Assembly: GCF_001618145.1 (NCBI RefSeq)
Contig: NZ_LQNF01000020.1
Location: 1-64,000 of the forward strand
Reading direction: 5' to 3'
Origin: Oceanobacillus damuensis
GTDB lineage: Bacteria > Bacillota > Bacilli > Bacillales > Amphibacillaceae
Length of the DNA stretch: 64,000 nt
In this document: positions 22,104 to 62,505 of the stretch, one piece after another
How the letters are laid out: every line of letters begins with the position of its first letter
Position numbering within the stretch: position 1 is the first letter of the stretch
Notes under the pieces: generated by a model
What the model was told of the DNA's origin: nothing
What the model saw: only the letters and a program-made list of their open reading frames with translations
The model's database searches: none
Made by a program: the position numbers and the translations under genes

Positions 22104-22334
22104 TGCACGGAAATGATGTTGAGTGTTGAACTGTCAAAGCAGATCGGTGAGCCCGCAAAGCTGAACACTGGGCAGTCTAAATCGACTGGAAAGAACGTGG
22201 AGTCGAGTGCCGAGCAGTTCATGCCGAGTGAAGAGGCTGCAAGATTCAACGCTGAGCAAATCCAAGTCAAACCCGAATTCCACTTGAATTCGAACGACAG
22301 CGGATCAGCCAAAAGCAACCAAACGCGATCATCA
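22104..22334. repeat. Degenerate 21-bp tandem array F (between ykfB and ykfC)
   Basis: About 11 consecutive 21-bp units can be laid out without indels (unit boundaries every 21 bases, e.g. 22146, 22167, 22188, 22209, 22230, 22251, 22272, 22293). The shared pattern is roughly nnnGAGCAnnnCnAGTCGAnt, with G-A-G at unit positions 4-6 nearly constant. Because 21 is a multiple of three, long open frames arise, but none has coding character. It interrupts an operon whose B. subtilis counterpart has no such spacer. Confidence 0.65.
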
Positions 22335-22379
22335 GATAAGCACAACTAAAAAATTCTCATCCGAGAAAGGAGCTCCAAA

Positions 22380-23345
22380 ATGCCTAAACAAACGTTTGAT
22401 CAATACCCGGAAGAGATTTGGGTTACAGCTGTACAGGTGGCAACGGTTTGGACAAACCCAGAGTCAGTAAGGGAAATGGATGTCGATGGAACGGCCAATC
22501 CAACGAATATCGATAACTGGGTCGAGAGTCTGTCATATGAGGCAAGCTTGGCCTTATGCAACGAAAACAGGGTGCAATCCCAGATATTATATGGAGAACC
22601 CGTGCTTGTTACCGAAGTGAAAGACAATTGGGCACATGTCATTATCCCTTCCCAGCCATCAAGTAAAGATGAACGCGGATATCCGGGCTGGGTGCCTGTA
22701 AATCAGCTTGCCCAGGTACCCAAAGATGAGTGGTTCACATCGCAAACCGCGGCTGTCATCAAAGACAAAGCATGGCTGGAAGCAGAGGATGGGGCAAAGG
22801 TTATGAAGCTTAGCTATATGACACTTTTGCCGGTAAAAGGAATAGAAGCTTACAGAGTGAAAGTTGCTACACCACATGGCGATAAATTTTTACCGGAAGA
22901 AGCGGTTCATATTTTTTCCTCTAAAGAAGGAATGGATAAGGGTTGTGGCCTGGATATTGTAAAAGCGGGAGAAGCCTATATAGGTCTCGGTTATTTCTGG
23001 GGCGGGATGAGTTCCTTTGGCTATGACTGCTCAGGCCTGGCGTATACGGCACATAAAGCAAATGGATACCAAATTGCCCGTGACGCCGGTGATCAGGCAG
23101 CTGCAGGCGAGAAAGTGGAATTTGATCAGCTTCAGCCGGGTGACCTCCTCTTTTTCGCATATGAAGAAGGTAAGGGGAGACTTCACCATGTAGGAATTTA
23201 TTATGGGGACGGAAAAATGCTTCACTCGCCCCAAACGGGAAAAGGGATTGAGATTATTTCTCTTGCCGGAACAAAATATGAAAAAGAACTTTGTGCAGCA
23301 AGGCGATACTGGCAAACAGCAAAGGAGAAAAGAAATGGAAGATAA
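22380..23345 (+). CDS. ykfC: Gamma-D-glutamyl-L-diamino acid endopeptidase (NlpC/P60)
   Basis: A 321-residue enzyme with N-terminal SH3-like domains (about residues 10-180) and a C-terminal NlpC/P60 cysteine peptidase domain. The catalytic residues are Cys217 (in YDCSGL), His270 (in HHVGIYYG) and His282 (in MLHSP). It releases L-Ala-D-Glu from imported murein peptides, the substrate of YkfB. No signal peptide is visible, consistent with a cytoplasmic recycling enzyme. AAAGGAG precedes the ATG. Confidence 0.94.
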
Positions 23346-24342
23346 AATATTGGAAGTCAAAAATCTGAAGAAATATTTTGATATGGGCAAGGGCAATCTG
23401 CTTCAGGCTGTAAATGATGTGAGCTTCCATGTAAACAGAGGGGAAACTTTTGGGTTGGTCGGCGAATCCGGGTGCGGAAAATCTACTATCGGGCGCACGA
23501 TTCTCGGGCTTTACGACAAAACCGCTGGAGATGTCATTTTTGAACATGAAAATGTCCATGGTTTGAATGAAAAAGAACGATTCAAATTTTATCGAAAGAT
23601 GCAGATGATTTTCCAGGATCCTTATGCATCCTTGAATCCAAGGTCAACGGTAAGGGAAGTTATTTCAGAGCCGATGGAGGTCCATGGGTTATATAAAAGC
23701 AAAAAAGAAATGTACGAAAGGGTTTATGAGCTGCTGGAAGAAGTCGGTCTGAATCGCGAACATGCCAATCGCTATCCCCATGAATTCAGTGGTGGTCAGC
23801 GCCAGCGGATTGGTATCGCCCGTGCACTGGCATTGAATCCGGATTTTATTATTGCTGATGAGCCAATATCGGCACTGGATGTATCCGTCCAGGCGCAGGT
23901 AGTCAATCTGATGAAACAGCTGCAGGAGGATAAAGGGCTGACATTTTTGTTTATCGCCCATGATTTGTCGATGGTGAAACAGTTTTCCGACCGAATTGGT
24001 GTCATGTATTTAGGGAATATGGTCGAATTAACCGAAAGCGCCCTGCTCTATGACAAACCACTGCATCCATACACACAGGCATTGCTCTCAGCCATTCCTA
24101 TCCCAGACCCGGATATTGAAGAACAGCGGGAACGGATTATTTTGGAAGGTGAACTGCCAAGCCCGGTTAATCCGCCAAGCGGATGTGTTTTCCGCACACG
24201 CTGTCCAATGGCAATGGAAGTTTGCTCCCAAATCCGTCCCGTCTGGCAGGAAGTCGAACAGGAGCATTTTGTAGCCTGTCACCTGTATGATAAATCCATT
24301 AAAAATAAAGAGCCGATTAAGAAACGGACGGAGACGGTATAA
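23335..24342 (+). CDS. ykfD: Oligopeptide/dipeptide ABC transporter ATP-binding protein
   Basis: A 335-residue ABC ATPase with Walker A GESGCGKS, signature FSGGQRQR and Walker [13 protein letters not shown], and a cysteine-containing C-terminal extension ([14 protein letters not shown]). The ATG at 23335 follows AAAGGAGAAA and gives the family length; the longer open frame overlaps the ykfC coding sequence. With this start it still overlaps the ykfC end by 11 bases. It probably forms the ATPase heterodimer with DppD. Confidence 0.92.
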
Positions 24343-24469
24343 AACAGCAATAAGCCTTCCCTGAAATTGGCGTTTGAAAAAATGAAGGTCTATTTTTGCT
24401 CCCGAATGTATAAATTGATTAGTAGGGAAGATAGATGACCCTATTTACTCGCTGCAAAGGGGGAAGGCC

Positions 24470-25657
24470 GTGAAAAAACACAATCCAGTACCAAAAGCAT
24501 GGAAAAAGAAAAAATCCTCATTAAAAAAACAGCTAATGAAAAGCCAGCAGATGAAATTAAAACAAAAGCACACGATTGAACAGACAGCACAAATCCGGAA
24601 AATAATTCCCTTGAAAAACAGAAAAACCCTATATTTCAAAAATCGGAGTAGTCGTCCGTGGAAAGTACAACTCGCTTTGAGCTTTTTTGTTTTGCTTATG
24701 TTTATCCTGGCAATCCCTGCCATGATTGTTGCATTCTTTGGAGGAAATTTAGAAACAGATATTGCAGCGGTGGAAAGGGAGAGGGATACAACAGTGGAAA
24801 TTGGTGCTTCACCGTTTTCAGTGGCTGTCATGCGATCTACTGTAGACACGGTGGAGGATATTCCTCTTGAAACCTATGTAGCTGGAGTGGTAGCCTCAGA
24901 GATGCCTGCTGAGTTCGAGCTGGAAGCCTTAAAAGCACAGGCACTGGCAGCCAGAACATTTACCGTGAACCATCTGCTTCACGGCGAAGATGCATCCAGT
25001 TATGATTTAACCGATACCGTCCAGCATCAGGTTTATAAAAATGAACAAGAGCTGCAAAAACAATGGGGCACTGAATATACCGAAAAAATGAACAAAATAA
25101 AAGAAGCAGTAAACGCCACAAAAGGGCAAATACTTACCCATAATGACGCACCGATCACCGCAGCATTTTTTTCAACAAGTAATGGATACACCGAAAACTC
25201 AGAGGATTACTGGGAAAATGAACTTTCCTATTTAAGAAGTGTCGAAAGTCCCTGGGATACAGAGTCACCAAAATACCTCGGACAGCATACATTTACCATT
25301 TCCCAGATAGAAGAAGCACTTGAAGTGGAGCTGCCAAATGATTCTCCCCTGTTTATCGAACTTGAACGCACCGGAAGCGACCGTGTAAGTGAAATAGGAA
25401 TTGAAGGCTATACCTTTACAGGAAGAGATATCCGTGAAAAGCTGGATCTGCAATCAAGTGACTTTGAGATCAAACAAAATAATGGCCATCTCATATTTAC
25501 AACAGAAGGTTACGGACATGGCATTGGAATGAGCCAATACGGAGCCAACGGAATGGCTAAAGAAGGTAAAACATACGAAGAAATCGTTAAATACTATTAC
25601 CAGGATATAGATATCACCACCATCAACGAAGCAGTACCAGCCCTCGTCTCCAGGTAG
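24470..25657 (+). CDS. spoIID: Stage II sporulation protein D (lytic transglycosylase)
   Basis: A 395-residue protein with a Lys-rich cytoplasmic N terminus, one membrane helix (about residues 67-90) and an extracytoplasmic SpoIID domain. The catalytic Glu is Glu144 in VASEMPAEFELEALKAQA, and the C-terminal GYGHGIGMSQYGANGMA motif is characteristic. It cuts glycan strands so that the mother-cell membrane can engulf the forespore, together with SpoIIM and SpoIIP. The N-terminal extension is longer than in B. subtilis (343 residues there). A GTG start at 24470 follows AAGGGGGAAGG. Confidence 0.95.
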   Translation: MKKHNPVPKAWKKKKSSLKKQLMKSQQMKLKQKHTIEQTAQIRKIIPLKNRKTLYFKNRSSRPWKVQLALSFFVLLMFILAIPAMIVAFFGGNLETDIAAVERERDTTVEIGASPFSVAVMRSTVDTVEDIPLETYVAGVVASEMPAEFELEALKAQALAARTFTVNHLLHGEDASSYDLTDTVQHQVYKNEQELQKQWGTEYTEKMNKIKEAVNATKGQILTHNDAPITAAFFSTSNGYTENSEDYWENELSYLRSVESPWDTESPKYLGQHTFTISQIEEALEVELPNDSPLFIELERTGSDRVSEIGIEGYTFTGRDIREKLDLQSSDFEIKQNNGHLIFTTEGYGHGIGMSQYGANGMAKEGKTYEEIVKYYYQDIDITTINEAVPALVSR

Positions 25658-25669
25658 ACGGGGGTTTTT
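25641..25669 (+). terminator. Terminator overlapping the end of spoIID
   Basis: CCCTCGTCT pairs with AGACGGGGG (one G:T pair), followed by TTTTTA. The stem includes the last spoIID codons and the TAG stop, so array A downstream lies outside the main transcript. Confidence 0.75.
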
Positions 25670-25683
25670 AATGATCTGGCCAT

Positions 25684-25995
25684 ATGGGAGAGGGGCGGTG
25701 CAAGTTGGGAGAGCTCGGCCTCAAGTCGGGAGAGTGTCGGCACGAGTTGGACGACAGTAATCTCAAGTTGGGAGAGCGCCGGTGCACGCCGGGAGCAAGC
25801 ACCCTCAAGTCGAGAGAGGACCGGCACAGCCCGGGAGAGCGCCGGTGCACCCGGGCGACAGCGCCCTCAAGTCGGGAGGGGACCGGCGCAACTCGGGCTA
25901 CAGCATCTTCAACTCGGGAGAGCCCCAGTGCACGCCGGGCGACAGCGCCCTCAACTCGGTAGAGCCCCGCCGCATCCCAGCCAGCATCCCCAACT
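25684..25995. repeat. Degenerate 21-bp tandem array A, with 42-bp alternation
   Basis: Fourteen units of 21 bp (one of 20) run from 25684 to 25976, and a decayed tail follows. The core is TCGGGAGAG. Units alternate between one ending GCGCCGGTGCACG and one reading GGGCGACAGCGCCCTCAAG, giving a 42-bp higher-order repeat. GC content is far above the neighbours. Open frames exist on both strands only because the period is divisible by three; translations show a 7-residue rhythm. Confidence 0.8.
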
Positions 25996-26113
25996 CGGAC
26001 GACCTCCCAGTCCAAAAGTAAGTTCCAAAACCCACCCCAACCCCCATCCAACCCCTTAACTTCCCCCATTCCGATAAAAAAATCCGCAAAATAATAATTT
26101 TTTAATTCTGAAT

Positions 26114-26143
26114 GTATATATTTTGATTTTTCTGCTCACAATG
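26114..26143 (+). promoter_or_regulatory. Sigma-F-like promoter of spoIIQ
   Basis: GTATA (26114-26118), a 15-base spacer and GCTCACAATG (26134-26143) fit the sigma-F pattern GYATA-N15-GGNNANANTR with one mismatch. spoIIQ is a forespore sigma-F gene in B. subtilis, which supports the call. Confidence 0.6.
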
Positions 26144-26161
26144 TTGCAGAGGTGATTAATT

Positions 26162-27016
26162 ATGAGTGAAGAGTTTAAAGGCGGTCCAAAAAATAAATGG
26201 AGTCGCATTTACAGGAAGAAATGGTTTTTCCCAGCTGTATATTTGACGATTGCAGCAATTTTACTATCGGTTGTCGTGTGGTATCAAAATCTGGATAATC
26301 AAATCCCTGATGCTACAGATGATCAAGACTTTCTTTCGGAGGATTACGTTCCAGTAATCAATGAAGAAGATGCAGAGCCAGTAATGGAGCAGCAGGAGTT
26401 AATTCAAATGCCGGTGGTAGACCTGGATCAAGCTGAAATCGTAACTAAATTTTTCGACTACAACGCAGAACAAGTTGATCGCGAGAATGCTTTGGTACTC
26501 TATAATAATAGATTCTATCAAAGCACAGGGGTTGATATTGCATCTGCCAGCGCAGAGACATTTGAGGTTATCGCAGCTTTGAGTGGTACAGTGGAAGAAG
26601 TGAAGGAAGATCCATTATTAGGTAATGTTGTCGTTTTGGCACATGAAGATGATGTAAAAACGTATTATGCAAGTCTTGATGAAGTCAATGTTTCTGCAGG
26701 ATCCAAGTTGAAACAAGGTGACACAGTAGGAACTGCTGGTAAAAACCTATTTGGAAAAGACAACGGAATACACGTACACTTTGAAATCAGAAAAGACGGG
26801 AAAGAAATGAACCCGGAAAGCTATTTCGATCAGCCAGTAAGCAGCTTGGGAAGTGATTCTGAGGATGCTGAAGAAAATTCGGAAGTAAGCGAAGAAATAA
26901 ACTCTCCGGATGAAGCTGAACCGGAAGCAGATGGTGAAGACACACCGGAAGATGATTCTGAAGAAACTGAAGAAGATCCAACAGAAGACACTGACGAAGA
27001 AGAAGATAATGCTTAA
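26162..27016 (+). CDS. spoIIQ: Stage II sporulation protein Q (degenerate M23/LytM protein)
   Basis: A 284-residue forespore membrane protein: one helix at about residues 21-41, then a LytM-like domain that meets SpoIIIAH across the intermembrane space and helps engulfment. The second zinc motif is intact (His204 and His206 in IHVHFEIR). The first motif reads STGVDIA, so the usual zinc-binding His before x-G-x-D is lost, and no peptidase activity is expected. A strongly acidic tail of about 60 residues follows the domain. Confidence 0.92.
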   Translation: MSEEFKGGPKNKWSRIYRKKWFFPAVYLTIAAILLSVVVWYQNLDNQIPDATDDQDFLSEDYVPVINEEDAEPVMEQQELIQMPVVDLDQAEIVTKFFDYNAEQVDRENALVLYNNRFYQSTGVDIASASAETFEVIAALSGTVEEVKEDPLLGNVVVLAHEDDVKTYYASLDEVNVSAGSKLKQGDTVGTAGKNLFGKDNGIHVHFEIRKDGKEMNPESYFDQPVSSLGSDSEDAEENSEVSEEINSPDEAEPEADGEDTPEDDSEETEEDPTEDTDEEEDNA

Positions 27017-27022
27017 TGGAGA

Positions 27023-27066
27023 AAAATGCCCTGGTACATTTTATTGTGTACCGGGGTATTTTTTCT
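27023..27066 (+). terminator. Terminator of spoIIQ
   Basis: AAATGCCCTGGTACA pairs with TGTACCGGGGTATTT (two G:T pairs) and ends in TTTTTTC. Confidence 0.85.
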
Positions 27067-27115
27067 GATTGCGGGAAAAAACAGCCATTAGATGTAATAT
27101 TCACTCATGCGCAAA

Positions 27116-27144
27116 TTGTCGAACGATAATATATTTTTTATACA
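27116..27144 (+). promoter_or_regulatory. Candidate sigma-A promoter of the AimR-like gene
   Basis: TTGTCG (27116-27121), 17 bases, TATACA (27139-27144). The match is four of six at each element with ideal spacing, about 75 bases before the ribosome-binding site. Confidence 0.4.
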
Positions 27145-27224
27145 ATAAAATATGGTACTATATTAATGTTCCGAAAAAAGAGAGAGTGAGTTTTCCGTAA
27201 ACAGGAAAAGGGGGTATAAAAGTA

Positions 27225-28250
27225 ATGCTGGCAAAATTTATGGCAGTCGAATCGGAACTGACAATGACGGAAATTGTAACTATAATGAAACAGGAGAATA
27301 GTGGCGAGTCGTTCACAAACATGATGAAGAACATCTGTCTGCAATCGCCTTCAAAGGATATCCAGAAAAAAGGCATGGAATATTTATATATGCAAGGATT
27401 CCATAAAGAGCTAGAACTATTGATTGAGAAGAATCTGGAGTCTGATAATACTTCCAATAGGCTATGGGGTTCTATTTATCGTATCATGCTTGATCAGACT
27501 TCAAGGAAGGATCATCCACGCGTAACACTTCAGAAAATAAAGCAGTTAACGAATAGATACTCAACCAATGAGCCTGAGCTCTTGTTTCTAATAGAACTGA
27601 TAAAGGAAAAGGCCTATCAGATTTTGTGCCAATTTGACCGAATAGGCAATCTTATGGTGACATATCAGCGATACTTTTCAAACATAGAAGAAAGGCTGCT
27701 GATCAACTATTTTAAAATTAGAGTCTATAATATTAATATTATCTATCACATGGTGAGAAATGAGCTAATTATGGCGAGAAAATATGCATATCGGACGATT
27801 AATATGACAGACAGCCTGCCAATTCTTGCTTCCATCCACACTTATCTAGGCTTGTCCTATACATTTGATACGTATGAAAAAGGAATGCTTCACCTGAAAA
27901 AAGCACTGGCATTTTCAAAAGAGGGGAACATTCATTATCTGGTCGATATCCTTGAAAACTATAACATACCATTTTTATCGGCTCATTTCAAAATGGTGGA
28001 CAACATTACAACCTCTGATATAGGTGAGCAAGCCCATCTAGAAATTGCTAAAGGAAATAATGATAAAGCGATCCAGCTTCTCAATGAATTGCCTAATAAA
28101 AACCCTTTTCACCTTTATTATTTAGGGAAAGCGAAAGAGGACAGAAGTATATTAAGTGAAGCCTATAACCATTTTATTGAAAAAAGAAGTGATTATTTCT
28201 TCAGCAGACTTCCATTGAATGCCATAAGGACATATGATTTTTTCACTTGA
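27225..28250 (+). CDS. AimR-like (arbitrium receptor family) helical-repeat protein
   Basis: A 341-residue all-helical protein. From about residue 60 onward it has the helix pattern of tetratricopeptide-type peptide receptors. The last 90 residues (IGEQAHLEIAKGNNDKAIQL, then HLYYLGKAKEDRS and FFSRLPL) resemble the C-terminal half of phage AimR lysogeny regulators. The N-terminal region before this is only about 30-60 residues, and a helix-turn-helix is not obvious. AAAAGGGGG precedes the ATG. It sits between spoIIQ and spoIIID, not in a prophage. No AimP-like secreted peptide gene is visible downstream. Similarity was judged by eye, so a more distant RRNPP-type regulator is possible. Confidence 0.6.
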   Translation: MLAKFMAVESELTMTEIVTIMKQENSGESFTNMMKNICLQSPSKDIQKKGMEYLYMQGFHKELELLIEKNLESDNTSNRLWGSIYRIMLDQTSRKDHPRVTLQKIKQLTNRYSTNEPELLFLIELIKEKAYQILCQFDRIGNLMVTYQRYFSNIEERLLINYFKIRVYNINIIYHMVRNELIMARKYAYRTINMTDSLPILASIHTYLGLSYTFDTYEKGMLHLKKALAFSKEGNIHYLVDILENYNIPFLSAHFKMVDNITTSDIGEQAHLEIAKGNNDKAIQLLNELPNKNPFHLYYLGKAKEDRSILSEAYNHFIEKRSDYFFSRLPLNAIRTYDFFT

Positions 28251-28819
28251 GAAAAGCGTAGTGACTACCCTGGAACCAGGGTAGCTAAGCAAGTGACGGG
28301 AAGGCCCCTGTTGTTCCAGGTTTGGAATGTGCTTCACTTTTGAAAGGAGCTTCCAGTGACCGATTCCTGCCACTGCCGCCTATGTCTTTAATATCCACAT
28401 TCAATGCCTTTCTGAAAATTTCCCAGACAAGAAGCTGCTGATTTGCCATCCTAAACGACAATCCAGCAGCTCCTTTGTCCCCAATTTACGAGCAATCAAT
28501 CAAATTTCCATCCTTAAAATGAAAATACACCTTGTCCTCCTTAGGAATTGTACAAATTTAATCATAAAGCATGCACAATTCTAATAAGATGTTACAAACC
28601 ATGCAATCGAATTGTCTGAGGTGAGAGCTTGTGTTACGTCCCAATATTCTTCTTTCTGCTTGCCCCACATGGAATATTCACCCCATTGCCGTTTTCACTT
28701 TTCTGCGGTGATACATACCAATATTCTTCTTGCAGCGTAGTTCATTGAATGATCATAACCGTATTAACGCCATGTCTCGACCCACACCTCGGAATCAAAC
28801 AACTAGGGAGGCGAACGGT
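28251..28819. repeat. Gene-free spacer with inverted and direct repeats before spoIIID
   Basis: No gene over 20 codons with a ribosome-binding site was found. Visible are TACCCTGG-AA-CCAGGGTA just after the AimR-like gene, an imperfect inverted repeat of about 15 bp (AAGCTGCTG/CAGCAGCT with matching GACAA/TTTGTC flanks, near 28427-28481), and two direct copies of a 24-bp segment at 28631-28654 and 28708-28731. Both copies contain CCAATATTCTTCTT and match at 20 of 24 positions. The direct copies lie in the spoIIID promoter region and could be operator sites. Confidence 0.45.
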
Positions 28820-29101
28820 GTGCATGATTACATCAAAGATAGGACAATCAGGATAGGAAGGCATGTCGTAGAGACAAAGAAAACTGTCCGAACGATAGCG
28901 AAAGAATTTGGTGTCTCCAAAAGCACAGTCCATAAAGACCTGACAGAACGCTTGCCGGAAATAAATCCTGAGCTTGCTATTCAGGTCAAGGAAGTCCTAG
29001 AATACCATAAGGCAATCCGCCATTTAAGAGGAGGGGAAGCAACAAGGCAAAAATATAAAATAGACGGCAAAAAAGAACCACAGGAAAAACCCGCCGGCTG
29101 A
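28820..29101 (+). CDS. spoIIID: Stage III sporulation protein D (DNA-binding regulator)
   Basis: A 93-residue helix-turn-helix regulator that adjusts mother-cell sigma-E and sigma-K genes. The HTH is TIAKEFGVSKSTVHKDLTER, followed by the conserved RHLRGGEAT basic region. The GTG at 28820 gives the family N terminus MHDYIKDRT and follows GGGAGGCGAA; the open frame extends further upstream, but that part does not match the family. Order spoIIID-mbl is as in B. subtilis. Confidence 0.96.
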   Translation: MHDYIKDRTIRIGRHVVETKKTVRTIAKEFGVSKSTVHKDLTERLPEINPELAIQVKEVLEYHKAIRHLRGGEATRQKYKIDGKKEPQEKPAG

Positions 29102-30544: not shown

Positions 30545-30588
30545 GCCCATTCAATAGGTTTCCTGCCAAAGATAGTTGCTTTTGAACC

Positions 30589-30615
30589 TTTACATTTTTA
30601 GCTTATACCCGATAT
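30589..30615 (+). promoter_or_regulatory. Sigma-D-like promoter of flhO-flhP
   Basis: CCCGATAT (30608-30615) matches the sigma-D -10 (GCCGATAT) at 7 of 8 positions. The -35 position, 15 bases upstream, reads TTTA instead of TAAA. flhOP is sigma-D dependent in B. subtilis, which supports the call. Confidence 0.45.
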
Positions 30616-30666
30616 AAATAAGTAGTAAACCTATTTTTCTAAAAACAGTTGAAGGGAGAGAGTCTA

Positions 30667-31476: not shown

Positions 31477-31509
31477 TATGGCGATATCCTTTTTAGAGGA
31501 GGGACAATC

Positions 31510-40310: not shown

Positions 40311-40568
40311 TCTCCCAGGCTGATGAGCGCGTCTCCCGTTTAAGTGATGTTCTGTCCCGAGTAGGCGAGTGATTCTCCCGATGCATCAGTTCTCAGTCCC
40401 GAGTAGGCGAGCGCCTTTCCCGATTCACCGATGCTCAGTCCCGAGTTGATGAGCGTCTCTCCCGTCTCAGTGAAGTCCCCTCCCGAGCAGACGAGCGCCT
40501 CTCCCGATTCATCGACGTTCGCTCCCGAACAGGCAAGCGTCCCTCCCATCCAAGCAGTACCCTCTCCC
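40311..40568. repeat. Degenerate 21-bp tandem array B, with 42-bp alternation
   Basis: Twelve units of exactly 21 bp start every 21 bases from 40311 to 40542. Each carries TCCCGA or a near match (the reverse complement of the TCGGGA core of array A). Odd units continue with GAGTAGGCGAGCGCC-like sequence and even units with TTCATCGATGTTC-like sequence, a 42-bp alternation. The minus-strand frame through it has a 14-residue repeat but no other sign of being a gene. Confidence 0.8.
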
Positions 40569-43016: not shown

Positions 43017-43195
43017 CAGGACAGAAACCCGCAAGACGGTAGAGACACGCACCGAAACGGGAGAGAAACCCGAACGAACGGGCCAGAAACTTACCAAATG
43101 GGAGAGAATCCCGCAAAGACGGGACAGACACGCACCGAAGCGGGAGAGACCCCGGCACAAACGGGCCAGAAACCCGCAAGACAGGACAAGCCCAG
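43017..43195. repeat. Degenerate 20-21-bp tandem array C
   Basis: Nine units with cores (CGGGAGAG, CGGGACAG or CGGGCCAG) start at 43017, 43037, 43058, 43079, 43099, 43120, 43141, 43162 and 43182, so spacing is 20 or 21 bases throughout. Each core is followed by AAACCCGCAA- or ACACGCACCGAA-like sequence. It lies between zwf and the exporter genes, both on the minus strand, and shares the CGGGAGAG core with arrays A and B. Confidence 0.78.
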
Positions 43196-46382: not shown

Positions 46383-46487
46383 TTGTCGGATAGTTGATGG
46401 CAATTGCTGAATGCACGATGACAATTGTCGGATTCCGGCGGAGAATTGTCCGATAGCCCGGTGTTTTCATCGGATTCTCCATATTAT
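46383..46487. repeat. Degenerate 21-bp tandem array D (3' untranslated region of tagO)
   Basis: Five units start exactly 21 bases apart at 46383, 46404, 46425, 46446 and 46467 with cores TTGTCGGAT, TTGCTGAAT, TTGTCGGAT, TTGTCCGAT and TCATCGGAT. It lies between the tagO stop and its terminator, so it should be transcribed. The unit differs from arrays A-C although TCGG is shared. Confidence 0.65.
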
Positions 46488-46563: not shown

Positions 46564-46601
46564 AATAAGACTTCCTTCAAATAGGAAGTCTTATTTTTTT
46601 C
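46564..46601 (+). terminator. Terminator downstream of tagO
   Basis: AATAAGACTTCCT (46564-46576) and AGGAAGTCTTATT (46583-46595) form a perfect 13-bp stem followed by a run of T residues. It is 244 bases after the tagO stop codon. Confidence 0.88.
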
Positions 46602-46776
46602 GACAAATTTCGGGGAGTGACAGGCACCTCTTTTGACCTATGTCTTATTACACTGTTTTACTGGGAAAATTTTCTATATTATAATAATATATCTGAATAT
46701 TAAGTCTCATAGAGTTCAGACATAGAATACTTTCTATTCAGGGGAATGCAATCTATTAAAATTTAGGGGGAAGGTT
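46602..46776. repeat. REP-like half element and promoter region of the second subtilase
   Basis: GGGGAGTGACAGGCACCTC at about 46613-46631 resembles one arm of the GGGGACAGGAACC-type palindrome seen complete at 34675-34769; no matching second arm is present. The rest is AT-rich and must hold the promoter of the protease gene, but no confident -35/-10 pair was chosen. The ribosome-binding site is AGGGGGAAGG at 46765-46774. Confidence 0.4.
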
Positions 46777-53265: not shown

Positions 53266-53285
53266 TATAGTGGAGGAGGGATCGT

Positions 53286-54443: not shown

Positions 54444-54453
54444 GAGGAAAATG

Positions 54454-54978: not shown

Positions 54979-54992
54979 GTGAGGATGGTGGC

Positions 54993-55835
54993 ATGAAACA
55001 AATAACCTACGAAAAGATCGTCGAGGAAGTGGCAAGGCTTTGCCAGGAAGCTAACTATGACCTTGGTCAAGATGTGATCCAGGCATTTGAGGATTCTGTG
55101 AAAACAGAAACATCTGAGGCTGGGAAAAGTATTCTGAATCAGTTAATTGACAATGCAAATATTGCGACCGCAAACAGGGTGCCAATGTGTCAGGATACAG
55201 GTGTATCGGTATTTATCGTTAAACTCGGTCAGGATTGTCATATCACTGGCGGCTCCCTTCAGGATGCAATTAACGAGGGAGTAAGAACAGGGTATGAAGA
55301 AGGTTATTTAAGATACTCGATTGTTGATGACCCAATCAATCGCAAAAATACAGGTGACAACACACCATCCGTAATCCATGTTGAATTAGTGGAAGGTGAA
55401 GATTTAGAAATACAAATGACCGCTAAAGGCGGTGGTGCGGAGAATATGAGCGCACTGAAAATGCTCACTCCAAGCGATGGGTTGGAAGGGGTTAAGGAGT
55501 TCATCTTAAACACGGTGAGGGAAGCTGGGCCAAACGCATGTCCACCACTTGTCGTTGGGGTGGGTATTGGAGGAAACTTTGAGTCCTGTGCATACTTAGC
55601 AAAAAAATCTCTCTTCCGTCCAGTTGGTGAAAGGCATGTGCAGCCTGATATAGCAGCATTGGAAGAAGAAATGATCATAGAGATAAATAAATTGGGAATC
55701 GGGCCACAAGGAATGGGTGGGACCACGACAGCACTGGATATCAAGATTGAAACAGCCCCATGCCATATTGCAGCATTACCTGTAGCGGTCAATCTGAACT
55801 GTCATGCCAGCCGTCATAAGCATGTGAGATTGTAA
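54993..55835 (+). CDS. Class I fumarase-type hydro-lyase, alpha subunit
   Basis: A 280-residue subunit of an oxygen-sensitive [4Fe-4S] hydratase (TtdA/fumarase N-terminal domain family). The three cluster cysteines lie in MCQDTG, GPNACPPLV and FESCAYLAKK. Two-subunit members act on fumarate, tartrate or mesaconate. Because it is flanked by the MaoC and acyl-CoA dehydrogenase genes, mesaconate/citramalate interconversion (mesaconase) is as plausible as fumarase. It cannot be settled from sequence alone. Confidence 0.92.
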   Translation: MKQITYEKIVEEVARLCQEANYDLGQDVIQAFEDSVKTETSEAGKSILNQLIDNANIATANRVPMCQDTGVSVFIVKLGQDCHITGGSLQDAINEGVRTGYEEGYLRYSIVDDPINRKNTGDNTPSVIHVELVEGEDLEIQMTAKGGGAENMSALKMLTPSDGLEGVKEFILNTVREAGPNACPPLVVGVGIGGNFESCAYLAKKSLFRPVGERHVQPDIAALEEEMIIEINKLGIGPQGMGGTTTALDIKIETAPCHIAALPVAVNLNCHASRHKHVRL

Positions 55836-55846
55836 GGAGGTCTAAC

Positions 55847-56401
55847 ATGGCTCAACATTATATACGTGTCCCTTTTGAAGATGGGGTGGAACTGGAATTA
55901 CGTGCTGGCGATCAAGTATTTTTAACTGGAACGATTTTTACGGCAAGGGATGCCGCCCATAAGCGGATGGTAGAACAGCTGGAAAAAGGGGAAGCACTCC
56001 CGATTGATCTAACAAACCAAGCGATATACTACGTCGGTCCAACGCCAGCGAAGCCGGGGGCGGTTATTGGATCTGCCGGTCCGACAACAAGCAGCCGGAT
56101 GGATAAATATACACCAAGACTTCTGCAGGAAGGCTTAAAAGGAATGATTGGTAAAGGGTATCGAAGCAAGAAGGTCATTGACTCGATTGCCGAAAATAAC
56201 GCCGTCTATTTCGCTGCGATTGGTGGATCAGGAGCGCTTCTTGCCCAAAAGATAAAATCCTCGGAGCTTATTGCATATGAAGACCTTGGAACAGAGGCAA
56301 TACGTAAAATAGAAGTGGAAAATTTCCCTTGTATTGTGGTGAATGATCATAAAGGAGGAGATTGGTATAAGGAATCACAAGCAAACTTCAAGCAAAGTTA
56401 A
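55847..56401 (+). CDS. Class I fumarase-type hydro-lyase, beta subunit
   Basis: A 184-residue partner of the preceding gene (fumarase C-terminal domain family), starting 11 bases after it behind AAGGAGG. The substrate-binding segment GAVIGSAGPTTSSRMDKYTP and GMIGKGYRSKKV are typical. Together the two chains make the active enzyme. Confidence 0.92.
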   Translation: MAQHYIRVPFEDGVELELRAGDQVFLTGTIFTARDAAHKRMVEQLEKGEALPIDLTNQAIYYVGPTPAKPGAVIGSAGPTTSSRMDKYTPRLLQEGLKGMIGKGYRSKKVIDSIAENNAVYFAAIGGSGALLAQKIKSSELIAYEDLGTEAIRKIEVENFPCIVVNDHKGGDWYKESQANFKQS

Positions 56402-56443
56402 TAATTGGGCTATAAAAATCATATAAAGGTAGGGAGAGGTATC

Positions 56444-57643
56444 ATGAATAGACTGCAACCTGTAAAGGGACCAATTACATTAAGTGAGGAAGAAAGAGAA
56501 GGGTTGAGACAAGAAATCCGAGCATTGTGTAATTCCTTTGGTAATGACTATTGGAGACGACTCGATCCGGGCCGAGAATATCCCCATGGGTTTGTTGACG
56601 CGTTAACCGAAGCTGGTTATTTATCTGTACTCATTCCTGAAGAATATGGTGGAAAAGGCTATGGACTGACAGAAGCAACAATCATCTTAGAAGAAATTCA
56701 CCGTTCTGGAGGACACGCAGCAGCATGTCACGCACAGATGTATACGATGGGATCGCTTTTACGGCACGGAAGTGAAGAGCAAAAGCAAAAATATTTACCT
56801 GGCATTGCCAACGGAGAGATTCGATTACAGGCATTTTCCATAACAGAGCCCGATGCCGGCTCCAATACAACAGCAATCAGCACATTTGCGGAAAATACAA
56901 AGAGTGGCTATGTTGTAAATGGTCATAAAAACTGGACAAGCCGAATTCAACAATCCGATTTATTATTGCTGCTGGCACGTACAACACCTTTTGAAGAAGT
57001 GGAGAAAAAATCCCAAGGTATTACATTATTCCTCGTAGATTTACGTGAGATTCGCAAAAATCAACCCGACTCATTGGTTGTCGAACCCGTTCGTACGATG
57101 TTTAACTATGCTACAAATAAGATTTGGTACAAAGATATGGAAATACCTGAAGACAGTGTTATTGGGGAAGAAGGAAAAGGATTTAAATATGTATTGGACG
57201 GAATGAATGCCGAACGGATTCTGCTTGCAGCTGAAACAATCGGAGACGGATATTTCTTTATCGACCGTGCAGTTGAGTATGCAAGCAACCGGGAAGTTTT
57301 TAATCGGAAAATTGGTCAAAATCAAGGGGTACAATTTCCGATTGCACAAGCCTATACAAAAGTAAAAGCGGCAGATCTCCTGCGCTACGAAGCTGCGAAA
57401 AAGTTTGATACAGGCGAAAATTGTGGAGAAGAAGCAAACACTGCAAAGTTTCTATCCAGCGAAGCAAGCTGGGAAGCAGGGAATGCCTGTATAAATACGT
57501 ATGGCGGAAACGGATTTGTCGATCAGTATGATATTGAACGTAAATTTCGCGAAACCCGCATGTATCAGGTTGCACCTGTAAACAACAATTTAATCTTATC
57601 CTACATTGGGGAGCATGTGCTAAAAATGCCACGTTCCTATTAA
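56444..57643 (+). CDS. Acyl-CoA dehydrogenase
   Basis: A 399-residue FAD flavoprotein with the usual three-part fold. The flavin-contact segment is FSITEPDAGSNTTAIS. The position of the usual C-terminal catalytic Glu reads YQVAPVNNN and has no Glu. Glu257 in NAERILLAAETIG occupies the helix-G position used by isovaleryl-CoA and long-chain dehydrogenases, so it is the probable base. Together with its neighbours this suggests a branched or dicarboxylic thioester such as methylsuccinyl-CoA, although known methylsuccinyl-CoA dehydrogenases are longer. The ATG at 56444 follows GGGAGAGG. Confidence 0.9.
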   Translation: MNRLQPVKGPITLSEEEREGLRQEIRALCNSFGNDYWRRLDPGREYPHGFVDALTEAGYLSVLIPEEYGGKGYGLTEATIILEEIHRSGGHAAACHAQMYTMGSLLRHGSEEQKQKYLPGIANGEIRLQAFSITEPDAGSNTTAISTFAENTKSGYVVNGHKNWTSRIQQSDLLLLLARTTPFEEVEKKSQGITLFLVDLREIRKNQPDSLVVEPVRTMFNYATNKIWYKDMEIPEDSVIGEEGKGFKYVLDGMNAERILLAAETIGDGYFFIDRAVEYASNREVFNRKIGQNQGVQFPIAQAYTKVKAADLLRYEAAKKFDTGENCGEEANTAKFLSSEASWEAGNACINTYGGNGFVDQYDIERKFRETRMYQVAPVNNNLILSYIGEHVLKMPRSY

Positions 57644-57657
57644 TGAAAGCGTTTAAA
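57644..57657 (+). promoter_or_regulatory. cre-like site 2 before the TRAP transporter genes
   Basis: TGAAAGCGTTTAAA matches TGWAARCGYTWNCW at 13 of 14 positions and shares AAGCGTTTAAATA with cre-like site 1. It begins directly after the dehydrogenase stop codon, 39 bases before the TAXI receptor gene. Confidence 0.5.
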
Positions 57658-57695
57658 TAAAAATATTGATTTAAATTTTACGAGGAGGAAAGACG

Positions 57696-58736
57696 ATGAA
57701 AAAATATTGGTTTCTTATAATGGCAGCACTTTTTCTAGGGTTACTTACGGCATGTGGCGGTGGAGATGAAAATTCTTCCGATGCTGAATCAGGAGATTTC
57801 CAAGAAGATGAATACCCAAGCACAGTCACAATCGGAACAGCATCACAAGGTGGAACCTATTATATTTGGGGTGGCGGCTTTGCGAACATGCTGGAAGAAC
57901 ATTTAGATATCACATCCAATGTTGAAGTAACAGGGGGACCTGTCCACAATATCCAATTGCTTGACCAAGGTGATATCCAATTAGGAATGGTGACGGAAGG
58001 GCCGCTTTACGAGGGATATAATGCATCAGGAGACTGGGCAGAGAAGGAATATAAAGACATTCGAGTGATTTTCCCGATGTACAACACACCTTTTAACTGG
58101 TGGTCACTGGCATCTACAGGTGTTACAAGTATCGAAGAACATGAAGGAGAACGTGTTGGTGTAGGGCCTTCCGGTGGGACTCCTGGAACATATAACCCAC
58201 TTATTTATAAAACATTAGGGATTGAAACAGGAGACCAGGTGCAAGCGGGTGCGAGTGATATGGTTTCGCAAATGCTCGATGGTCAATTAAAACATATCGG
58301 ATTCTCAGCGGGTATTCCAATATCGGCAGTAGTTGAAGTTGAAACACAAGAAGACATCAATATTTACGGGATTGACGGCGAAAACCGCGATAAGGTAATC
58401 GAAGAGCTTCCATATTTCCAGGAATTTGTGATTCCTGATGGAACGTACCAGCAGCAAGAGGGCGATATCGAAACGATTGCACAATTTAACTTTGGTGTGG
58501 TCCAAAAAGAAGCAAATACCGACTTTGTATATGACTTTGTGAAAATGTACCACGAAAATATTGATCAAATGATTAACACACATGCATCTGCTGAAGAAGC
58601 GAAAGATCCAGAAGCGATATTGAAAAATACCCAGTTCCCATTGCACCCAGGGGCAATCCGTTACTACGAGGAAATAGGCATTGATATTCCTGAAGAATTA
58701 TATCCAGAAGAGTATGAAGCGGAAGCAAGCGAGTAA
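57696..58736 (+). CDS. TAXI-type TRAP transporter solute-binding lipoprotein
   Basis: A 346-residue lipoprotein (lipobox LLTAC, Cys20) of the TAXI family, recognised by TIGTASQGGTYYIWGGGFANML and GPSGGTPGTYNPLIYKTLGI. It would capture a carboxylate outside the cell and deliver it to the fused TRAP permease downstream. GAGGAGG precedes the ATG. It is the first transport gene of the catabolic cluster. Confidence 0.92.
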   Translation: MKKYWFLIMAALFLGLLTACGGGDENSSDAESGDFQEDEYPSTVTIGTASQGGTYYIWGGGFANMLEEHLDITSNVEVTGGPVHNIQLLDQGDIQLGMVTEGPLYEGYNASGDWAEKEYKDIRVIFPMYNTPFNWWSLASTGVTSIEEHEGERVGVGPSGGTPGTYNPLIYKTLGIETGDQVQAGASDMVSQMLDGQLKHIGFSAGIPISAVVEVETQEDINIYGIDGENRDKVIEELPYFQEFVIPDGTYQQQEGDIETIAQFNFGVVQKEANTDFVYDFVKMYHENIDQMINTHASAEEAKDPEAILKNTQFPLHPGAIRYYEEIGIDIPEELYPEEYEAEASE

Positions 58737-58763
58737 GCGTTGCAGATAGAAGGGGGATGTTTC

Positions 58764-58803
58764 AAAGTTGAATAGATTCTCCTTCAGGAATCTATTCAAC
58801 TTT
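58764..58803 (+). other. Perfect 16-bp stem-loop between TRAP receptor and permease genes
   Basis: AAAGTTGAATAGATTC (58764-58779) and GAATCTATTCAACTTT (58788-58803) with the loop TCCTTCAG. There is no T-run. It lies in the spacer after a binding-protein gene, where such hairpins commonly protect the upstream mRNA or limit permease expression; the role is inferred. Confidence 0.7.
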
Positions 58804-58831
58804 AGATTTGATTTCATCGGGAGGATAAAAC

Positions 58832-60859
58832 ATGTCGAACAAAGAAAATAACTCCAAAAGAGTGGCTGACAATAATAGGGCAGAAGAACATGTGAAAGAA
58901 CCGAAAGTGAATAGAGATGGAAAAATTGATACGACAGTGAATGAGGATGCACTGGAAGCGTCACCCAACACTAGAAATCTGTCAGGCTGGATGCGATATA
59001 CGTTTATGACCATTGCGGTTGTCGGGGCATTGTATCATCTATACATCTTGAATTTAAACCCTATCGATCCATGGATATTCAGAAGTACTCATCTGCTCTT
59101 TGGAACGGTACTGGCATTATTGCTCTATAAAGGGTGGAAAACAGATTCGAATAAAATTACTATCCTGGACTGGATTTTTATTTTCGCGGCGATTTTTGTC
59201 GGTTATTATATTTATGCCAATTTAAATCAATTGGTTTTCCGCTTTGGTGTAGCACCGACAACAATGGACGTTATTGTAGCAACACTAGGCTTATTGCTGG
59301 TATTGGAGATTACTAGAAGAACAAGCGGCTGGATTCTCCCGATTCTAGCGTTCATCTTCTCTGCCTATGTGTTTTTAGGACCTTGGCTGCCAGGTTTTCT
59401 GAACCATAATGGATATTCTTTTGAACGCTTTGTAACGTATATCTATGGACTGGACGGGGTGTTCGGTGTAACAACGGATGTATCCTCTAAATACATTATT
59501 CTCTTCATTATTTTTGGTGCCTTTCTGCAAATGTCTGGTGTAGGGCAATACTTTATGAATGTAGCCTTCCGGGTGGCAGGTGGAATGCGTGGTGGTCCTG
59601 CCAAAGTAGCGGTTTTCTCATCAGGGCTTATGGGAATGATCAATGGTACCTCAGCAGGAAATGTTGTTGCGACTGGTTCTTTAACAATCCCACTGATGAA
59701 AAAGACAGGCTATAACCCGCGTTTTGCGGCAGCGACAGAAGCGACAGCGTCCGCAGGTGGTCAGTTATTGCCTCCAATCATGGGTGCGGGTGCCTTTCTT
59801 ATGGCCGAGATTACGGGAATGCCGTATTCAGAAATCATTTTAGCTGCAACCATTCCCGCGTTGTTATATTTCATTTCCATCTATTTCATGATTGATTTTA
59901 AAGCAATCAAAGAGGGACTAAAAGGATTGAAAAGGGAGCAGCTGCCAGACCTGAAATATATCCTGAAAAAGCTTTACCTGTTTATACCGATTTTATTGCT
60001 TATCGGACTATTGGTAAGCGGATTTAGCGTCATTTATGCTGGTACAATCGGTATCATTGCATGCTTCGTTATCAGCTTATTCAGTAAAGAAACACGCATG
60101 AGTTTCAAAAATATCCTGGAAGCATTGGAACTGGGGATGAAGAATGCTTTGCAGCTAATTGCAATTGTTGCTTGTGCTGGTTTTATCGTAGGCGTAATTG
60201 CACTTACAGGGGTAGGCCAACGATTCAGCTCGATGCTGCTTTCCATTGCAGATAATAATATGTTTTTAGCATTGCTGTTTGCGATGGCATTATCCATTAT
60301 TCTGGGGATGGGAATGCCTACAACTGCCGCATATGCTGTAGCAGCATCTGTTGTCGCTCCTGGATTAGTCGGTATGGGAATGGAGCCAATCCTGGCGCAT
60401 ATGTTTGTATTCTACTATGCAGTAATCTCAGCAATCACGCCACCAGTTGCATTGGCGGCCTTTGCAGCGGCAGGCATAACGGGAACCAATCCGATGAAAA
60501 CAAGTGTAACAGCATTCCAAATTGGCCTTGCAGCGTTTATCGTTCCATTTATGTTCTTCTACAGTCCGGAATTACTCCTGTTAAGCGATTCTGCGGTTGC
60601 GATTGGTCTTGCAGTTGTTACAGCACTTGTAGGTATCTATCTGCTGGCAGCATCTGTACAAGGCTGGTTTTTTGGAAGAAAAGCACCAATCTATGTGCGT
60701 GCCATTCTTTTAATAGGAGCACTTTTCTTTATGGTGTCAGGTTTAGCATCTGATTTTGCAGGGATTACAGTTATTATCATCGCAATGGTCATCCAAAAGT
60801 TTTTGAAGAAATCGGATCCTCCTCAAAATGTGACACAGCAAGAAGTCAGTTCGATGTAG
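58832..60859 (+). CDS. TRAP transporter permease, fused small and large subunits
   Basis: A 675-residue membrane protein. A hydrophilic N-terminal stretch (about 45 residues) leads to four helices of the DctQ type and then about twelve helices of the DctM type. Conserved DctM segments are GLMGMINGTSAGNVVATGSLTIP, TEATASAGGQLLPPIMGAGAF and ILGMGMPTTAAYAVAASVVAP. Such 4TM/12TM fusions pair with TAXI receptors. It imports its substrate using a sodium or proton gradient. GGGAGGA precedes the ATG. Confidence 0.93.
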   Translation: MSNKENNSKRVADNNRAEEHVKEPKVNRDGKIDTTVNEDALEASPNTRNLSGWMRYTFMTIAVVGALYHLYILNLNPIDPWIFRSTHLLFGTVLALLLYKGWKTDSNKITILDWIFIFAAIFVGYYIYANLNQLVFRFGVAPTTMDVIVATLGLLLVLEITRRTSGWILPILAFIFSAYVFLGPWLPGFLNHNGYSFERFVTYIYGLDGVFGVTTDVSSKYIILFIIFGAFLQMSGVGQYFMNVAFRVAGGMRGGPAKVAVFSSGLMGMINGTSAGNVVATGSLTIPLMKKTGYNPRFAAATEATASAGGQLLPPIMGAGAFLMAEITGMPYSEIILAATIPALLYFISIYFMIDFKAIKEGLKGLKREQLPDLKYILKKLYLFIPILLLIGLLVSGFSVIYAGTIGIIACFVISLFSKETRMSFKNILEALELGMKNALQLIAIVACAGFIVGVIALTGVGQRFSSMLLSIADNNMFLALLFAMALSIILGMGMPTTAAYAVAASVVAPGLVGMGMEPILAHMFVFYYAVISAITPPVALAAFAAAGITGTNPMKTSVTAFQIGLAAFIVPFMFFYSPELLLLSDSAVAIGLAVVTALVGIYLLAASVQGWFFGRKAPIYVRAILLIGALFFMVSGLASDFAGITVIIIAMVIQKFLKKSDPPQNVTQQEVSSM

Positions 60860-60941
60860 ATTCAGGAATACAGCATAATTTAATTGTGCTGTATTTCCAT
60901 TTATATGCGTATGTATCATATTGCTGAAGAAGGTTATGAAA

Positions 60942-62369
60942 ATGTATAGAAGGAAAAAGCTAAAAAAATTAATTTCCAATCAAATGGTTATCATGCTCTG
61001 CGCCACAATTCTGTTGATTTCCATTATCTATTTTTTGCCGGAGCAAGTGAGCTGGGGAGCGAGAACGACAATCGGAATTATGATGTTTGGTCTTATTTTA
61101 TGGGCATTTGTGCCAATACCGATTGGCATGACTTCACTGCTTGTCCTCGTATTATTGATCTTATTGCAATCTGTAGAGATGGAAGTGGCACTTAGCGGAT
61201 TTGCATCACCGGCAGTACTTCTGATTATTGCAGGAATGATGATAGCAACAGGCGTCAATCAGACAAATTTAATGGACCGCCTTACATATCGTTTACTGTC
61301 AAAATGGGGGAAATCCGCCAAAGGAATCTTTCTCTCGCTATTTTCACTAATGCAAGTGCAAGCATTTTTTATCCCTTCCACTGCCGTAAGAACATCACTG
61401 ATGATGCCACTTGTTTCTTCTGCACTGGATGCAGTCGGTGCAAAAAAAGAAACCAATTTCAGCAAATTGCTGCTCCTCAGTACAGCTTTCGGAGGGAATG
61501 TCAGTGGTGTTGCTATCTTGACAGCTGCAGTTGGAAATATATTGACGGTAGAGATTCTCCGGCTATATTTGGGTACAACCCTTACCTATGTACAATGGTT
61601 TATATATGCATTACCGATATGGTTATTGCTGATGCTCGTTGTCCCAATTATTTTATGGAAACTATTCCCGCCAGAGAGTTTTTCATTTAATATGCTTCAA
61701 AAAGAGATGGACGAAAATTTGCAAAAGATAGGACCGTATACAATAGAGGACAAGAAATGCTTGGGAATTCTCGGATTTACGATTTTGATATGGGTCACAG
61801 AGCCATTCCATGGATATCACCCTACATTCGGAGCATTACTAGCGGTTGTTTTAATGACAATGCCTGGCATCGGATTTGTGCAATGGAAAAAAATGATCGA
61901 TGTGAATTTTGATATGGTGCTATTGATTGGCGCTACCTTATCCTTAGGATTTGCACTGATTGAGTCAGGTGCAATCGATCTCCTGGAGGTTCTCGTGACA
62001 CCTGATTTTGTGTTAGAAGTCTTTTCCAACCCTTGGCTGGCAATTCCAATGGCAGTCATTGTTTCCCAAATCTACCATTTAGGAGTAACCAACGTATCAA
62101 CTGCAGTTGTAACAATCATGCCCGTGCTAATCAGTCTATCGCAACAAGCTGGTCTTGACCCAGTAGTTATAAGCTTCGCGGCATCCGTGACTATTCTGCT
62201 TGGTTATATTCTTATCGTAGAAACCATGTCAAATGTGGTTGTCTATAGCAGTGGTAAAATCAGTCAGCGAGACTTCTTATTACCGGGAATATATTCAACG
62301 ATAGCAAGCACAGTTATTACAATACTCGTTGCTTTCACTTGGTGGAGATGGCTTGGATTTTGGCCGTAA
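60942..62369 (+). CDS. DASS/SLC13-type sodium:carboxylate (anion) symporter
   Basis: A 475-residue protein with a basic N terminus and about eleven hydrophobic segments. The paired hairpin motifs expected in the DASS/ArsB-like fold are visible as FFIPSTAVRTSLMMPLVS and YHLGVTNVSTAVVTIMPVL. It follows the TRAP permease by 82 bases and probably gives a second route for dicarboxylate uptake or exchange. The start is uncertain: ATG 60942 is chosen from spacing to AGAAGG, but ATG 60936 and TTG 60921 are in frame. Confidence 0.8.
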   Translation: MYRRKKLKKLISNQMVIMLCATILLISIIYFLPEQVSWGARTTIGIMMFGLILWAFVPIPIGMTSLLVLVLLILLQSVEMEVALSGFASPAVLLIIAGMMIATGVNQTNLMDRLTYRLLSKWGKSAKGIFLSLFSLMQVQAFFIPSTAVRTSLMMPLVSSALDAVGAKKETNFSKLLLLSTAFGGNVSGVAILTAAVGNILTVEILRLYLGTTLTYVQWFIYALPIWLLLMLVVPIILWKLFPPESFSFNMLQKEMDENLQKIGPYTIEDKKCLGILGFTILIWVTEPFHGYHPTFGALLAVVLMTMPGIGFVQWKKMIDVNFDMVLLIGATLSLGFALIESGAIDLLEVLVTPDFVLEVFSNPWLAIPMAVIVSQIYHLGVTNVSTAVVTIMPVLISLSQQAGLDPVVISFAASVTILLGYILIVETMSNVVVYSSGKISQRDFLLPGIYSTIASTVITILVAFTWWRWLGFWP

Positions 62370-62384
62370 CATATAGTTGGTGCG

Positions 62385-62505
62385 AAACTGGAATTAGGCA
62401 CTCCCAAACTAAGCTAAGGCGCTCAACCTAGGTCTTCCAAAATCGAACTAAGAGATTGAAAACTGAACTAGGGGTCAGCCCCAGCCACTAAGCGATCTCT
62501 GAAAA
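62385..62505. repeat. Degenerate 20-bp tandem array E after the symporter gene
   Basis: Units built on AAACTGAACTAAGG-like sequence recur. Anchoring on the central T of CTA(A/G)G gives positions 62395, 62415, 62429, 62449, 62469 and 62489, so spacing is 20 except for one interval of 14. The sequence is weaker and shorter than arrays A-C and unrelated in core, but similar in period and intergenic position. Confidence 0.5.

Follow-up and report, generated by a model that had tools for sequence, protein, structure and literature searches.

Arrays of tandem repeats with a period of 20–21 bp lie in the intergenic gaps of a 64-kb stretch of Oceanobacillus damuensis (contig NZ_LQNF01000020.1, positions 1 to 64,000; hereafter, the window), and we find that they are members of a published class of noncoding 20–21-nt satellites, represented here by a family with the core CGGGAGAG and by at least one other. 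Oceanobacillus is a further home of this known class. The new part, which we have not met in the literature searched, is the replication polarity of such arrays in two relatives, O. halophilus and O. senegalensis. The reading that we favour, tentatively, is that these are oriented protein-binding arrays with two-turn spacing that are copied between loci and soon replaced.

The 20–21- and 52-nt satellites of Bacillus and its relatives have been called enigmatic, in that their size is constant, their sequence is variable, and no function is known for them. Subirana and Messeguer (2021, PMC8161180) recorded 781 tandem repeats of 20–21 nt and 1886 of 51–53 nt in 176 Bacillus genomes; the passages of that paper available to us describe them as constant in size (20–21 or 52 nt), noncoding, and species-specific in sequence, with several families in one genome and a short stretch conserved within the units, note that the shorter size amounts to two helical turns, and propose a link to nucleoid proteins or small RNAs. 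An earlier model-made reading of the window (the sequence-only reading) had known of no named family of this kind, a view that fails because PMC8161180 already describes such repeats and remarks, in the passages available, on both the two helical turns and a possible role in the nucleoid.

Tandem arrays in the window and in the rest of its genome

The sequence-only reading had placed arrays in six gaps, labelled A to F here. When the match rate at lag 20–22 in each gap is compared with that of 2000 dinucleotide shuffles, four of them prove real, with 0 of the 2000 shuffles as high as the observed rate: array B (25684..25995; 0.488 against a null of 0.307), array C (40311..40568; 0.494 against 0.292), array D (43017..43195; 0.487 against 0.347), and array E (46383..46487; 0.536 against 0.296). 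Array A (22104..22334) gives a weaker signal (0.367 against 0.285, p = 0.0025), with 42, 21, and 63 as its top three lags, and is probably real but very worn. Array F (62385..62505) is not established, and its membership among the 20–21-bp arrays is doubtful: its rate at lag 20–22 is 0.386 against 0.296 (p = 0.009) with a weak excess at 20, its top lag is 54, lag 40–43 is not significant (p = 0.13), and no clean register was found when one was looked for. A scan of the whole window over lags 8–69 returned B, C, D, and E together with one lag-24 match within an M23 peptidase gene; arrays A and F were absent from its output, A falling below threshold. Among the six gaps, Tandem Repeats Finder at score 40 recovered B, C, and D.

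Core spacing was measured with up to 2 mismatches allowed. Array C holds 11 cores, and 10 of its 10 intervals are exactly 21 bp despite worn spacers; array D holds 8 cores at intervals of 20 or 21 bp; array B gives 13 core matches, one of them a spurious extra, mostly 20–21 bp apart with two double steps of 42; and array E has 4 core matches at intervals of 42, 21, and 21. Arrays A and F showed no register in this analysis. The common 20–21-bp period with differing unit sequences, which the sequence-only reading had described, is upheld, as is its suggestion that spacing matters rather than one exact sequence. It had also proposed a word shared by A, B, and C: CGGGAGAG/CTCTCCCG is indeed common to B and C, and to D as well, and by eye it is not in A. 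Its view of the sequences as locus-specific is not supported, as B, C, and D are built on a single dispersed core, which also turns up on other contigs of this genome; the idea of locus-specific seeds was dropped on the same ground.

The window's own genome (G000 in our numbering) is a 4.1-Mb draft of 73 contigs, which we examined as stretches with L numbers. The draft contains 20 exact matches to GGGAGAG-N13..15-GGGAGAG, on contigs C2, C4, C8, C16, C17, and C18, and 0 to the reversed control; B, C, and D are members of one dispersed family with core CGGGAGAG that is present on further contigs. In 36 20-kb stretches picked without known matches (one set of 20, and 16 of a second set of 20 whose other four had been chosen for known matches), five noncoding arrays belong to the class (one each at L011, L151, and L161, and two at L012), or about 7 per Mb. 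The four arrays within the 64 kb of the window make it array-rich by comparison. A second family, with core CGCCGATAAAT, is seen at L151 6876 and, by eye, also at L166 18796, alongside the CGGGAGAG and array E families of this genome. Core chaining that permits intervals of 19–23 and 39–45 gave 21 (59 times), 20 (8), 42 (13), and 41 (4), and no others. Period 21 alone is not proof of a noncoding satellite, because the same genome also contains a coding repeat of 21-nt period that specifies a GFPGGP protein (L017 3937–4497, with the array at 3941–4348).

Companion arrays of 52 nt are likewise present (L009 4621–5543; L160 5291–5913 and 7841–8333; L167 3431–4244) and have words in common such as TGAAGATCA and AAGATCTTCAT. 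Their leading strand is purine-rich in 4/4 cases (p = 0.125), which is suggestive only. These companions, like the genome-wide contrast of core and spacer and the polarity in the two relatives described below, fall outside the window and so escaped the sequence-only reading.

Orientation of the arrays with replication

To score orientation, an array was counted only if it had at least three core matches, and chromosome arms were assigned from GC skew or from dnaA. In O. senegalensis (G024), the pair TTATCGGC-N11..13-TTATCGGC occurs 219 times on one strand and 11 times on the other, with positions for 100 among the matches listed. The dnaA gene lies at 3.53 Mb; to the right of it GC skew is mostly positive, and on the left it is for the most part negative. 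Across 46 20-kb stretches, GC(C/T)GATAA is on the leading strand in 27/27 array segments, at 364 copies to 0; the number of independent arrays is below 27, because many segments are the two edges of one assembly gap. Four pairs on contig C3 were not placed. Among the matches listed and the stretches sampled, the arrays cluster 0.24–0.48 Mb to the right of dnaA (C4 3.767–4.005 Mb); further ones lie about 0.76 and 0.95 Mb away on the same side, and one place is at −0.59 Mb, the sampled left arm being almost empty. No arrays were seen in the sampled terminus half, the sampled right-arm arrays all lying 0.24–0.95 Mb from dnaA. Beside several of the array gaps in this genome (L190, L192, L195/L196, and L168), the same gene stretches flank the gap on both sides, as at L192 14841–15160 and 17691–18010; these are apparently assembly duplications caused by the arrays.

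O. halophilus (G059) gives the same picture from a different core. By GC skew, CGGTTGATAG is on the leading strand in 20/20 arrays, at 344 copies to 0, and these arrays are spread over 12 contigs in 13 contig blocks. On contig C50, the skew flips between 60 and 64 kb, and the arrays on its two sides are on opposite strands. Counted by block with the sign left free, the chance of such agreement is 2 × 0.5^13 = 0.0002. Five contigs were scored first; the strands at further places were listed before GC skew was computed, with no prediction recorded in advance. Contig C36 (L252, 3.6 kb, one array) was excluded because its skew of +0.022 could not be judged, and at face value it is discordant and would give 20/21; L251 (675 bp, without an array) was also excluded. 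A second family in this species, with core GCGCCTATAAA and a 20-bp unit (L238 18501–18901 and L239 1416–1736), is on the leading strand in 2/2 cases. In a further relative (G028), 4/4 arrays are on the leading strand, and its array at L244, concordant with two core matches, was left uncounted under the three-match requirement.

Neither gene direction nor base composition alone accounts for this polarity. Gene direction fails because, in 22/47 arrays or segments of the two species together, at least one neighbouring gene points against the fork (both neighbours do so in only one). Base composition alone fails because the leading strand is purine-rich in only 93/127 array-free gaps of at least 200 bp in O. 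halophilus and in 206/283 in O. senegalensis (Fisher p = 0.004 and 0.0006 against the arrays). Our literature search turned up nothing on replication polarity in repeats of this class, though the 2020 J. Bacteriol. paper of Subirana and Messeguer may say more, and in the text available of PMC8161180 and PMC6749651 "leading strand," "orientation," and "Oceanobacillus" occur 0 times.

Conservation of cores relative to spacers

Whole units were aligned to a 20–21-nt consensus, and p values were obtained by shuffling mismatches within units. The core CGGTTGATAG of O. halophilus (18 arrays, 361 units) is kept at 94–99% per position, against 40–86% in the spacer (p = 0.0005). The corresponding figures for GA..GC-GATAAA in O. 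senegalensis (13 arrays, 256 units) are 92–100%, with its C/T position at 70%, against 39–76% elsewhere in the unit (p = 0.0005). In the window's own genome (12 arrays, 115 units), CGGGAGAG is kept at 80–95% against 39–77% in the spacer (p = 0.0005), figures that are somewhat favoured because the 12 arrays had been located through their period or through that very core. Taken singly, array B shows the contrast at p = 0.024 and array C at p = 0.0045. Slippage followed by neutral drift would not give a core spared in this way.

Distribution among relatives

The CGGGAGAG pair pattern is present in 8/58 genomes, the window's own included; in three of the 58 (G017, G028, and G043) the counts are not specific, because the reversed control matches there too. 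The glucose-6-phosphate dehydrogenase (G6PD) of the window is 89% identical to that of O. rekensis and 87% to that of O. massiliensis, which places the window in Oceanobacillus. Eighty named species were compared at the G6PD locus, where arrays of 20–21 period are common and their units differ by species: the consensus unit is different in most relatives, and 20-bp units are as common there as 21-bp ones. Leaving out L039, which is the same genome as G024, we count 26 noncoding arrays with z of at least 7 in 20/79 G6PD loci. The 22 arrays at these loci for which both neighbours were called comprise 10 in convergent, 10 in tandem, and 2 in divergent gaps, and the 195 array-free gaps of at least 250 bp comprise 60, 71, and 64, respectively, so that arrays are rarer in divergent gaps (2/22 against 64/195, Fisher p = 0.026). 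The sequence-only reading had named the absence of such arrays elsewhere as a refutation; as they are present in the rest of the window's genome and in these relatives, it is not refuted on this count.

Units of different species have 136 7-mers in common, against 50.9 in shuffles (sd 8.6, maximum 76, 300 shuffles), with GCCGATA, GCGCGA, and GATAAAT among the recurring words. The 37 units from 24 species were a manual choice of one for each family in each species, and so we take this sharing as a lead only; several weak rows were omitted, the units of O. massiliensis 1 and L. sediminis were read off the printed arrays by eye, and the shuffle preserves base composition only and ignores kinship.

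Some arrays reverse midway, with units facing each other (GGGAGA/GAGAG and then the reverse complement), as at L131, L136, L142, and L144 in the genome G033 and at L036 4586–4903 in Virgibacillus indicus.

Genomic setting of the window arrays

As the sequence-only reading had stated, the arrays lie between genes, both by the layout of open reading frames and by our heuristic gene calls, which put 0 of the 6 in divergent gaps. The four strong arrays, B, C, D, and E, all have ordinary genes as neighbours. Array B, with its 20–21/42-bp units and CGGGAGAG on the plus strand, sits between a SpoIID-family gene and an M23 peptidase gene and starts just past a terminator-like stem (25646–25665) of the former. 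Array C, on the minus strand, has its 11 cores 21 bp apart (CGGGAGAG on minus, CTCTCCCG on plus) in a convergent gap between an AcrB-type transporter gene and a Cyclase-family gene. The 8 cores of array D (CGGGAGAG/CGGGACAG, plus strand, at 20–21 bp) lie between the G6PD gene and ThrE-family genes. Array E is short, has a 21-bp period and no assigned strand, and is built on another core, which reads TTGTCGGAT on the plus strand; it follows a glycosyltransferase-4 gene and ends ahead of a terminator-like stem at 46564–46595, with a subtilase gene on its other flank. Array A, likewise unassigned, retains a very worn 21-bp periodicity without CGGGAGAG between an MR_MLE-family (enolase-like) gene and an NlpC/P60 gene, and array F has no assigned strand. 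Other intergenic repeats, made of GGGGACAGG / GGTGCCTGT / TGACAGGCACC words and unlike the 21-bp arrays, occur in the window at about 46600–46640 and at L021 1141–1316.

What the arrays may be

We would give somewhat less than an even chance to the reading of these repeats as oriented protein-binding arrays. The core would then be a protein-binding site spared by selection, and its spacing at about two helical turns would set all sites on one face of the DNA; a chromosome-associated protein would bind the array cooperatively and directionally, with the fork. New arrays would be seeded by copying from other loci and would then drift, those of the window forming an ageing generation, and cores would be quickly replaced between species.

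A series of observations weighs against this reading. A search for a partner protein, confined to the FtsK gamma domain, found none, and turnover of the core between species would oblige any binding protein to follow it. The evidence from O. senegalensis is nearly one-armed, with 25 segments on the right arm and 2 on the left, the latter being two sides of one gap. Array D on its own shows no significant contrast between core and spacer (p = 0.11). In the window's own genome, the polarity is 8 leading to 4 lagging arrays, which is not significant (p = 0.39; the array at C2:46.7 kb is counted as leading by the 20-kb stretch L265, with skew +0.085, where a 3-kb piece had given lagging and a total of 7:5), and array C lies 2.5 kb from array D in the opposite orientation. 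Cerasibacillus terrae gives 8:3 by array (11:4 by chain) on one contig, where all nine sampled stretches are skew-positive; its core is nearly palindromic, and two chains overlap opposite-strand arrays, hence the count by array. The arrays of G033, judged by eye, change direction in the middle so that their halves face, and were left unused for polarity because of this. Purine skew as a general test is of little help either way: it agrees with local skew in 7/9 usable G6PD-locus arrays, but two O. halophilus arrays and one C. terrae array are among them. Polarity thus varies by species, from strict to loose or absent, and it accompanies fresh, purine-skewed units.

The close rival is a selfish or neutral satellite, for which there is also a substantial if smaller than even chance: slippage or template switching at the fork would generate arrays in one orientation only, leaving survivors that all run with replication, the copying machinery would set the period, and the cell would derive no function from them. 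This explains polarity and turnover more simply than protein binding does, and the spared core less well. Unit sequence turns over rapidly between species, arrays are patchy at one locus among relatives (20/79 G6PD loci, at the threshold given above), different loci of one genome have units in common, orientation follows replication and not genes, and a per-replichore strand bias towards A is described for the tandem repeats of Borgs in the passages available of PMC9879509. Against it stand the retention of a 94–99% core while the spacers of the same units vary, unless copying itself needs the core, and the persistence of 20–21 intervals even in very worn arrays.

We consider it unlikely, though conceivable, that the arrays of Oceanobacillus and its kin form a fast-evolving, replication-oriented address system, in which intergenic arrays of species-specific 8–10-bp cores at two-turn spacing, all directed with the fork, would be bound by a putative protein that changes along with the core; this would be the counterpart, in bacteria, of centromeric satellites and the proteins that bind them.

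A role as RNA, with the arrays transcribed as small or 3′ RNAs as Subirana and Messeguer proposed, seems improbable. The avoidance of divergent gaps at the G6PD loci speaks for it, as does the transcription of 52-nt repeats reported for B. coagulans (PMC8161180 and PMC8625621, in the passages available). Yet orientation tracks replication even though 22/47 arrays or segments have at least one neighbour against the fork, B and C fold as RNA no better than shuffles (z of −1.15 and 0.25), the window has 0 Rfam 15 matches at gathering score, and array B sits after a terminator-like stem.

Replication orientation, purine-rich cores, and tandem placement would also suit guides like the SpoIIIE recognition sequences (SRS) and the FtsK orienting polar sequences (KOPS), with the gamma domain of SpoIIIE or SftA as their reader, a domain that reads SRS in an orientation-specific manner according to the passages available of PMC5869595. 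We judge this very improbable. The gamma domains of the two paralogues in seven genomes are near-identical within each paralogue group, and the cores are unrelated among species (CGGGAGAG, GCYGATAAA, CGGTTGATAG, and CCGATATA); SpoIIIE and SftA are unlikely readers because their gamma domains are constant while the cores differ. None of the four cores is the SRS octamer GAGAAGGG, and the sampled O. senegalensis arrays lie on the origin side, with none found in the terminus half. Decay from coding repeats of 7 residues is scarcely credible: 21 is a multiple of 3, several arrays are stop-free in some frame, and genuine coding repeats of 21 do exist, as at L017, but relatives have 20-bp units as often as 21-bp ones, array D mixes the two, the open reading frames over B and D have no Pfam match, and homogenised cores run either way relative to the flanking genes.

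If the polarity holds in more genomes, it would be the first property known to us that ties these satellites to a cellular process. A general polarity would leave the replication fork, segregation, and strand-directed translocation as the candidates, and would argue against regulation of neighbouring genes. O. halophilus and O. senegalensis offer clean species in which to seek a partner protein or a copying mechanism.

Comparison with known systems

Among Firmicutes, the STAR elements of staphylococci are interspersed intergenic direct repeats that combine a short core with spacers, like the arrays described here; their spacers are longer and more variable than those of the 20–21-bp arrays. 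The TAACTGA repeats of Beggiatoaceae (PMC4679880, in the passages available) share with ours many intergenic sets of direct repeats and a sporadic distribution, but they are heptamers, mostly face start codons, and have a proposed post-transcriptional role. The Borg tandem repeats (PMC9879509) are similar in their many scattered arrays, fast turnover, and one-strand nucleotide bias per replichore; they differ in having perfect units, in being both genic and intergenic, and in belonging to archaeal extrachromosomal elements, and the passages available give no constant size of 20–21 nt.

SRS and KOPS resemble the arrays in being purine-rich and, as far as O. halophilus and O. senegalensis go, replication-oriented, and recognition of SRS involves 8-bp repeats in tandem (PMC5869595, passages available). 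A leading-strand skew like theirs is seen in the arrays of those two species, against a non-significant 8:4 in the window's own genome. The differences are that the array cores vary by species while the gamma domain of the reader stays constant, and that the array loci are long, regular arrays, on the origin side and not the terminus side in the O. senegalensis samples.

The closest likeness is to the class of Subirana and Messeguer, as far as the passages available of PMC8161180 describe it. The constant size of 20–21 nt is seen in B, C, D, and E and in the chained intervals of the window's genome; B, C, and D each have the four or more repeats, mostly of equal length, that define the class, and E has 4 core matches. 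Variable, species-specific sequence with several families of the same size is found in the window's genome and in relatives, with 7-mer sharing in excess of shuffles, and the alignment of cores and spacers brings out a short conserved sequence in each of the three species aligned. In both settings, 52-nt arrays accompany the shorter ones. Most of the window arrays are more worn than the typical repeats of that study; they agree with each of its features that could be tested here, and the class is one already known.

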